Part shown: piece by piece, positions 7,161-10,100 of the stretch
Layout of the letters: each line of letters starts with the position of its first letter
Position numbering within the stretch: the stretch's first letter is position 1
Made by a program: the position numbers and the translations under genes
The notes under the pieces: generated by a model
Database searches by the model: none
Seen by the model: only the letters and a program-made list of their open reading frames with translations
What the model was told of the DNA's origin: nothing
Origin: Heliocidaris erythrogramma
Lineage: Eukaryota > Echinodermata > Echinoidea > Camarodonta > Echinometridae
DNA: 64,000 bases
Direction: 5' to 3'
Assembly: GCA_025617745.1 (NCBI GenBank)
Contig: CM046864.1
Coordinates: forward strand, 29,615,162 to 29,679,161

Positions 7161-10100
7161 GTGAGAACCTGTCTCATTACCCCAAACTTTTGTTTTCTTC
7201 AGATGAAGGGTTGGTCCAACCTGAAAGCTAACAATAATGATAAACTGCATGCATGTATATATCATGTACCTGTAACAGTAACGATAAGTGGTCCCTTCTG
7301 ATAGACTTCAAATGGCATTTTTGACATTGGTGGGGTGCTGTCAAATTAATGGAAACTGCCATCATGGTTTCTTTCAGACTGATGTCCTATTGAAGGAGCG
7401 GAATCATTGGCTCATACATATTATCTGTGAAGTCTATCGTAAAGAAAATCGCTCCCTGAGCGATTCTAATGAGACAATGAAATCGTTGGAGGAGGTTCAT
7501 TAGCATAAATGTTTTTTTGTGGTGGGACATACAGTTATGATTTCCGATGCATTCTCCACATAAACCTACTAAGCCTTAATTGTCAAGAGCAAATTTTATT
7601 TAAGAAGTATCCATAATAACATGAATATGTTAATAAACTGCTGTATTCTAGTTCATTCTCATGCAATTCAAAATAGTATTCTTTATGTCTTGTTCTAGTT
7701 CTACAAAATAACAGTTAGTGCTGTTCATACTTTTACATGTTGTATGCGACCTAACGACTCAAAGCCACCAATTATACATAAATATGTTGGAGAAAATATG
7801 GGAGAAACTTATTTCTCTGAATAGAGTCATTTGATTTCTCTTAGTATTCCATGGACATGTACTGGGTTCTCATAGAGTATAAAACTCCCAGTGCTACATG
7901 TATACATGTATCATTTTTATACCAAGTGTTATACCAAAACTTTACGTAGGCTTTAATGTGTAATTATATTAGTATCGATCTTGTTATTATCGTCATTGTT
8001 ATTGATATTATTATGAATATTATTTTTATGATTAATATTATTGTGATGATTATTATGTTATTAATGATGTTATTGTCATTTTGTGATTGATATTATTATT
8101 GATATCATTATTGCTATTAATATTATGAATATTATTTCATTAATAATATTATCATTAATAATAATATTGTAATTATTATTATTTTTCATTATTGTGCAAG
8201 TCCAAGGTATGTCTCATACGTTACCAAGTGTTATGGAAATGTAGTATGAAATCGTAAATATATGAATTGACATCAAAATATCATTTCACTTGATTATTTT
8301 GTCTAATTCAAGCTCTAGTAGGTGTATGAGCTTGATACATTAATCAGATACTAAAGTTTTAGATATGGTTGGTAACGTATACATGTGACAAAACATATCT
8401 TGGACTTGCCCTATTATTATTATCATTATTTTTTTTGTTGTTAATTTGTGATTATAGCAGGGAGTGTGGATGTCCGTCATGGGCTGGAGGAGGTGAACCA
8501 GGAGCTCCAGCATGTGGAGAGGCAGATTGAGAGGCTCCTTCAGAAACAGCAACGGCTCATGCAGAGAAAGGAGCAGCTGGAGGTCCAGTCAAGTAGGCTC
8601 CATGAGCTGAGCCTCCAGACTGGCTCCACCGATTGGGAGAAATCAGGTAATACACTGGTGATCCCCGACATTTGCTTCAGTGACGGTTTCTCCGGGCTTT
8701 AATTCATCAGCGATATATATGTGTTGAGGATTAGGGTTGCGATTGTTTTTTTTTTGTTTTTTTAGGTTCCCCATTACAACTTAATATAGGGGTCATTTAC
8801 AGTGCATTTTGCACCATGAACAGTACTGTACAGAGGTGGTGGGTTTGAGCCCTATTGAAGCACTAGCATGTATGTCCAGGGGGGTGTTTCATAAAGCTGT
8901 TCGTAAAGTTACGAACGACTTTACGAACGACTGGAACATGTTCTTGGGTGCTATACTAATCAGATTCTCAATCATCATAGCACAAGAACTGATCGCCAGT
9001 CGTGCGTAAAGTCGTGCGTAACTTACAAACAGCTTTATGAAACACTAGCATGTACTTCCAGAAGCAAGGCATTTCATCAATACTGTTTCTTTCTACTCAT
9101 GTGTTCAGTGGGTACCTGGTGGGATGTGAAGGTCATTGTGGCTGGATTAGAATACTAAGCACTAAAATTGCATAAATTGTATGTGAATCTTACATGTTTC
9201 GGCGCTTGACGTACATTACTCTGCGTCTTATGTTCTGGGGCATTATTGGATCAGATTTTCATCTTCTTTGAGAATTCCATTTTTACTGTTTAACATATAT
9301 ATTTCCCTCAGTTGTTGTTTCTACTGATCATTCTCTCTTCCTTCCCACATACATGTCCATCTCTCTCTCCCTGTCTCATTTCCTTTGTACTATTCTCTCT
9401 CTTTTGTTGCTACTGCTCTCTCGCTTCGTTCATCTCTCTCCTTCTTTGTCTCTCTTTTTCTCTCTCTCTCATTTCTCCTACTCTCTGTCTGTATATGTAT
9501 CTTCTTGTTCCTATTGCTCACTCTCTTTATTCCTTCCTACATTTCTCTCCCTCCATCTCTCTCAGACTATCCCTGGTCAGCTAAGCTCCACAGCCTGTGT
9601 GAGACTGTCTTTGGCATCAAAAAGTTCCGTCCTCTCCAAGAGAAGACGATGAACGCCTCACTGAGTGGCAGGGATGTCATCCTCCTCATGCCTACCGGTG
9701 GAGGGAAGAGCCTGTGCTACCAGCTACCGGCGCTAGTCAGCAAGGGTAGGTTGTAGGTCCAGTGCTGTTTATCGCTGCACTATGTTAAGGTTCTTTCCAT
9801 GAGCTTGGATTAATGCCAATGGTCTTTCCTTTAGGTTGGGTGAATTTGAGCCTGTGCAAACAGATACCAAAAGTAATCTGCAAGGGTAAGTTGTACATGT
9901 AGTTCCTGTGCTGTTTATCTCTGCATTGGAAGCAATGTTAAGGGTCTTTCCATGAGCTTTGGTGACATTTGAGCCGGTGACATTTGAGCCTGTGCCATCA
10001 GCTACGAGTGCTAGTCAGCAAGGGTAGGTTGTAGTTCCTGTGCCATCTGTCTGTTAATGCATGTTGTTTCATTGACCAACCAATTAAGATCCACTCTCAA

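Follow-up and report, generated by a model that had tools for sequence, protein, structure and literature searches.

The RECQL locus and the repeated exon 3 donor junction

The window, the whole 64-kb stretch of DNA that was analysed, carries a RECQL gene of the animal type on its + strand. The best matches of the ORF-built peptide of its helicase region were RECQ1 structures (phmmer, E 2.7e-95 to 2.1e-94), followed by weaker matches to BLM (from 2e-55), RECQ5 (from 9e-48) and WRN (from 6e-38). Exons were modelled by a joint search that combined GT-AG sites with a preserved reading frame, which yielded ten coding exons (8481-8646 the first, 21702-22999 the last) and nine introns, the start codon being provisional. 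Two models fitted, and the junction peptides decided which of them was retained. The last exon codes for a long C-terminal extension rich in Ser, Lys and Gly, whose ORF had no Pfam match at E 0.001. In the spliced model, joining exon 3 at its donor after 9745 to exon 4 at 10474 reads ..VSK-G-FTL.. across an intron of 728 nt.

The features around this junction are as follows; a slash marks the splice position in all sequences given here.

9566..9745, + strand: RECQL exon 3, the Walker A exon (180 nt), with the authentic donor after 9745 (phmmer to RECQ1 structures; joint GT-AG/frame model)
10474..10779, + strand: RECQL exon 4, the authentic acceptor partner of exon 3 (joint GT-AG/frame model)
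9708..9847, + strand: unit 1, made up of 38 nt from the end of exon 3 and 102 nt of the adjoining intron 3, with the authentic donor (self-alignment, resampling)
9848..9985, + strand: unit 2, a diverged copy with a decoy donor after 9885, AGG/GTAAGT (self-alignment, donor scoring, resampling)
9986..10043, + strand: unit 3, partial, with a decoy donor after 10023, AGG/GTAGGT, the same 9-mer as the authentic donor (self-alignment, donor scoring)
9961..9990, + strand: perfect 15-nt direct duplication, GGTGACATTTGAGCC twice, at the boundary of units 2 and 3 (self-repeat search)

The exon 3 donor junction is present three times in a degenerate tandem array spanning 9708-10043, as an earlier note on this DNA had claimed. 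The copies adjoin head-to-tail, one of them sitting at the authentic junction. Their 58-nt cores begin at 9708, 9848 and 9986 (offsets of 140 and 138), and ungapped identity to copy 1 over these 58 nt is 72% for copy 2 and 88% for copy 3; alignment of copy 1 with copy 3 likewise gave 88% over 58 nt. When gaps were allowed, 9708-9911 aligned to 9848-10043 with 67% identity (E 1e-16). The self-matches of the array, at 79.7 and 74.3 bits, lie far above the resampling control, in which the best match from each of 200 first-order Markov resamplings of 9560-10500 reached at most 32.8 bits. A search with CAAGGGTARGTTGTA that allowed up to 2 mismatches returned three matches in the window, all of them exact, against a chance level of 0.29 on average and 2 at the most (100 shuffles).

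Copy 3 ceases to resemble copy 1 beyond 10043: compared without gaps, the following 30 positions contain 20 differences. Smaller repeats are nested within the array: two related 32-nt stretches lie in unit 1 (9781-9812 and 9812-9843) and one lies in unit 2 (9934-9965), while the 15-nt duplication at 9961-9990 is probably a younger event. The extra 32-nt stretch in unit 1, together with the 15-nt duplication, therefore points to more than one duplication event. BLAST of 9560-10500 found no further copy of the array on either strand of the window at E up to 0.01, and we rejected an origin from a dispersed repeat on this ground. No RNA family was matched at the gathering threshold, and a scan of viral contigs with a 25-nt exact pattern gave no hit, as expected.

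Elsewhere in the window, a tandem array at 54450-55511 comprises 6.8 copies of a 157-bp unit with 97% match, and another at 28138-28406 comprises 2.6 copies of a 103-bp unit with ATTCATAAGGAC submotifs, flanked on either side by ATC-rich repeat tracts. A 306-aa ORF on the + strand (42557-43477) matches Pfam DUF4532 (PF15046, E 4e-24). A 796-aa ORF on the - strand (33844-36234) has no Pfam match at E 0.001 and overlaps a 27-bp tandem repeat at 35609-35758.

Donor strength and predicted splicing outcomes

All three copies in the array keep a GTARGT donor, consistent with the earlier note, which had reported GTARG in every copy. The junctions read GCAAGG/GTAGGTTGTA (after 9745), GCAAGG/GTAAGTTGTA (after 9885) and GCAAGG/GTAGGTTGTA (after 10023). 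Donors 1 and 3 are thus the same 9-mer, so that context would have to choose between them, and donor 2 is the nearest of the three to the consensus, as had been noted. A matrix built from the 8 other donors of RECQL scored donors 1, 2 and 3 at 1.22, 5.97 and 1.22 bits, absolute values that mean little because the matrix is small. Pairing with the 5' end of U1 gave -9.7, -10.0 and -9.7 kcal/mol for donors 1, 2 and 3, which makes them nearly equal in this respect. The gene has 737 intronic GTs, the decoys among them; in the matrix, 120 of these match or exceed donor 1 and 16 match or exceed donor 2. By U1 energy, donor 2 is equalled or bettered by 2 of them, itself counted, and the shared value of donors 1 and 3 by 3, a figure in which both decoys are counted.

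Three further features, of which the last two are predictions, bear on what use of the decoys would produce.

9754..9756, + strand: in-frame TAG met when exon 3 runs on to donor 2 or 3 and likewise when intron 3 is retained (translation)
9835..9885, + strand: possible cassette exon of 51 nt, phase-preserving and stop-free, which would add 17 residues (prediction only)
9810..9834, + strand: acceptor module of the possible cassette exon, a branch-like TTAAT plus a pyrimidine tract (in the second 32-nt stretch of unit 1, 9812-9843)

The TAG is the fourth codon past the last complete exon codon (read-through K-G-R-L-stop), which bears out the stop within four codons described earlier for exon extension. 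It lies 1329 nt upstream of the last exon junction when donor 2 is used, 1467 nt with donor 3 and 1917 nt when the intron is retained. A stop that far upstream of the last exon junction usually triggers decay.

The earlier note had also held that use of a decoy donor would truncate the helicase. This is accurate for exon extension; donor 2, however, can also be paired with the acceptor-like site at 9834 (tggtctttcctttag/GT), and the resulting 9835-9885 is in frame and open, so its use need not truncate the protein. The acceptor-like site scores 1.39 bits, compared with 0.17-7.84 for the nine authentic acceptors when each was scored with a matrix that omitted it. At the score cut-offs used, the introns of RECQL hold 13 pseudo-exons, and this 51-nt segment is the only one that combines a preserved frame with an open host phase; the candidate cassettes 9933-10023, 10002-10023 and 9864-9885 were rejected, since all run into stops. 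Of 2000 Markov resamplings of intron 3, 43% had at least one pseudo-exon, and in 4.9% there was one that was symmetric and open. Resampled introns of the whole gene (100 resamplings, phase 1 assumed throughout) are expected to hold 11.2 pseudo-exons per gene, 0.61 of them symmetric and open. All of these figures favour the 51-nt exon, because the cut-offs were set at its own scores.

Divergence of the copies and junction copies at other exon edges

Comparison between copies gave no sign that the decoys are under constraint. Copies 1 and 2 differ at 10 of 38 positions in the exon part and at 6 of 61 in the alignable intron part (P 0.048). When adjacent changes were merged into events, the counts became 6 and 6 (P 0.53), and we set aside faster change in the exon part of copy 2. 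Read in the exon frame, changes relative to exon 3 at codon positions 1, 2 and 3 number 6, 1 and 3 in copy 2 and 1, 2 and 2 in copy 3, so that silent changes are not in excess in either copy across the 12 codons that could be compared. Around donor 2, the 17 of 48 columns at the junction hold 2 of the 11 mismatches (P 0.16 for the fixed position, 0.81 for a position anywhere). Excess conservation at the donors, tested between copies, was not found.

Copies of a splice junction are not confined to exon 3. We scanned the 18 modelled internal boundaries with 80-nt queries, searching 400 nt to either side and requiring the copy to span the junction; matches with a dinucleotide entropy below 3.0 were dropped for boundaries and controls alike. 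At score cut-offs of 30-36, four of the boundaries (22%) have a local intronic junction copy: the exon 3 and exon 8 donors and the exon 10 and exon 11 acceptors. The three copies outside exon 3 are listed below.

16048..16080, + strand: duplicate of the exon 8 donor junction at 15964-15996, displaced by 84 nt, with a decoy donor after 16069, TAT/GTGAGT (junction scan)
20717..20767, + strand: duplicate of the exon 10 acceptor junction, displaced 180 nt upstream, with a decoy AG ending at 20751 (junction scan)
21476..21589, + strand: duplicate of the acceptor junction of exon 11 (21626-21731), with a decoy AG ending at 21553 (BLAST; 21514-21589 in the boundary scan)

A G-rich tract lies between the exon 8 junction and its downstream copy (15964-16080), and extension of exon 8 to the decoy GTGAGT meets an immediate TGA. 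The exon 10 original lies at 20902-20947, and its copy retains TAG/TTGTGGAGAAGGA. The exon 11 copy, 148 nt upstream at the splice site, has its own pyrimidine tract and TTGTAG, and it repeats most of the start of the exon, AAGATGAYGAGTAAAGATT.

The GT or AG is kept in all five junction copies of the gene, and three of the five decoys (donor 2 and the acceptor copies of exons 10 and 11) outscore their authentic partner in what are small gene-specific matrices. Donor 3 equals its partner, and the exon 8 donor copy scores lower (2.48 vs 6.95 bits). Exon extension to any of the five would reach a stop ahead of the normal end. The splice core is not preferentially kept: among the copies, mismatches affect 4 of 30 core positions and 49 of 271 others (one-sided Fisher P 0.36), three of the four core mismatches falling in the exon 10 acceptor copy.

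The boundary rate is about twice that at intron positions. Equal local copies were found at 11-13% of 1500 random intron positions (P 0.13-0.19) and at 10-12% of 1500 random window positions (P 0.10-0.16) at the same cut-offs of 30-36. At stricter cut-offs the excess at boundaries was likewise not significant, with 3 of 18 at 40 (P 0.25) and 2 of 18 at 45 (P 0.45), and an earlier scan, in which queries were shorter and gaps cost more, found copies at 2 of the 18 boundaries at 44 and at 1 from 48 upwards, again not significant. In that earlier scan such copies occurred at 0-0.3% of 300 positions in exon interiors. Set against the rates at random positions, exon edges are therefore not clearly special; with only 18 boundaries the power is low, and a real excess (22% against 11-13%) may exist. 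Where one partner is a conserved exon, the pair would diverge on one side only and the copy may stay detectable for longer, a probable source of bias.

Local self-similarity is common in the window as a whole, with 14 merged tracts in 64 kb at E 1e-6. Two of these cover RECQL boundaries, and when the 14 were placed at random, at least one did so in 75% of 20,000 trials, a figure inflated because large tracts had been merged.

Probable short tandem duplication and its alternatives

We consider recurrent short tandem duplication in a duplication-rich locus, with the decoys as neutral debris, the most likely account, at a probability of roughly 0.75. A tract of about 140 bp straddling the 3' edge of exon 3 would have been duplicated in tandem, either twice or in one multi-copy event, and smaller duplications would have arisen inside it. 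The original junction would have stayed under coding and splicing selection, while two copies landed inside intron 3 and have presumably drifted since. The copies would still show a donor-like GTARGT because there has been too little time for its loss, rather than because of selection. U1 probably binds all three donors, and the limits of exon 3 would be set by its acceptor, its length of 180 nt and donor 1; given this definition, donors 2 and 3 should yield at most low-level mis-spliced products, most of which would be truncated and presumably degraded. The sequence itself shows the copies and how far they reach, the donors, the stop, the frames and the similar copies at three other edges. 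That tandem duplication produced them, that they are neutral and that donor 1 is preferred are what we infer from it, and low-level splicing noise from the decoys is possible. The account calls for no regulatory role of the copies.

This account is consistent with the tandem layout at offsets of 140 and 138 in a window full of local duplications, with like copies at three other exon edges and with a splice core that is not preferentially kept. Against it stand the GT or AG retained in every decoy, with three outscoring their partners; the greater divergence of the exon part of copy 2 (significant by mismatches, not by events); the single frame-preserving open pseudo-exon among 13; and the doubled rate at boundaries, whose small number gives low power.

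Tandem genomic duplications that carry splice signals are a known source of introns under the Rogers model, as exemplified by the potato RdRp case described in PMC4974935. The likeness lies in a short tandem duplication that moves splice signals to a new place. In the potato gene, the duplicated segment includes intron-exon structure and a cryptic GTAAG donor is activated (PMC4974935); here, by contrast, both copies sit within an intron that was already there, and they leave the coding sequence as it was. The spliced model contains no new intron in the RECQL coding sequence, donor 1 keeping the frame from exon 3 to exon 4. Competition between donors, one of them a gtaagt site, is described in PMC5585400, and a narrowly worded literature search found no paper that pairs a minisatellite with a splice donor. 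Overall, the array shares its anatomy with tandem duplications at junctions and, as a candidate, its potential with duplicated and decoy exons.

An alternative that we regard as unlikely is that 9835-9885 is an emerging cassette exon, included between exons 3 and 4 in some transcripts. The exon would have been born from the duplicated edge, its acceptor coming from a further small intron duplication. Its length divisible by three, the open host phase, a donor of 5.97 bits, an acceptor within the authentic range and the 4.9% of intron 3 resamplings with a comparable segment all speak in its favour; with 0.61 expected in the introns of a gene, however, one such exon is unremarkable, the cut-offs flatter it, and copy 2 has no silent-site bias. 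It is correspondingly doubtful that the putative exon would insert 17 residues between motifs I and Ia and so provide a second RECQL isoform of altered activity. The insertion would fall between the Walker A helix and motif Ia and consist mostly of a diverged repeat of the end of that helix (a 13-residue stretch). Duplicated exons are a source of extra exons, as in the vertebrate COE/EBF H2d exon (PMC2394523). A diverged coding copy adjoins its source in both cases and phase governs possible inclusion, but here only the last 38 nt of an exon are copied, the acceptor would have to derive from intron sequence and the exon is a candidate.

The earlier note had left the choice between neutral debris and a built-in unproductive-splicing switch, in which regulated use of donor 2 or 3 would expose the stop at 9754 and tune the helicase level through nonsense-mediated decay. 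Donor 2 is the best consensus match of the three, and the stop lies 1329 or 1467 nt upstream of the last junction; apart from this donor strength and early stop, a switch found no support, and we judge it quite improbable. The same stop would follow from any later donor in intron 3 or from retention of the intron, other exon edges carry similar copies, and the bases of the splice core are not preferentially kept. The extension of exon 3 to donor 2 or 3 resembles a poison exon in bringing an early stop. Poison exons and other unproductive-splicing elements are usually strongly conserved, whereas comparison of the copies here gave no sign of constraint. We therefore favour debris over a switch, because copies occur at other exons, copies at random intron positions are not significantly rarer and the core is not kept.

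Decoy exons that promote intron retention are known from OGT, SF3B1 and ARGLU1, the OGT decoy having been tested by mutation and antisense masking (PMC12017769). By analogy, U1 at donors 2 and 3 and U2AF at 9834 might assemble into a complex that is itself not productive and that holds up the removal of intron 3 or leaves it retained, which seems very unlikely to us. The class exists in human genes and, as in the cases set out in PMC12017769, unused intronic splice sites could act as lures for U1 and U2AF. Both decoys rank at the top of the 737 intronic GTs by U1 energy, but the published cases are mainly longer retained introns (PMC12017769), and intron 3 measures 728 nt. An assembly artefact, in which collapsed or mis-joined reads created false copies, is highly improbable: within the 58-nt core copy 2 departs from copy 1 by 28% and copy 3 by 12%, and several indels separate units 1 and 2, differences that duplicated-read error would not produce.

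If the 51-nt exon were used, it would show an exon at an early point of its birth within the core of a helicase, and exon-edge duplications, seen at four of 18 boundaries, would be a steady source of proto-exons in this genome. If the copies are debris, as we favour, the locus would offer a clear snapshot of short tandem duplications seeding decoy splice sites near exons. The four cases in one gene would then form a natural series on how the spliceosome ignores near-identical sites.
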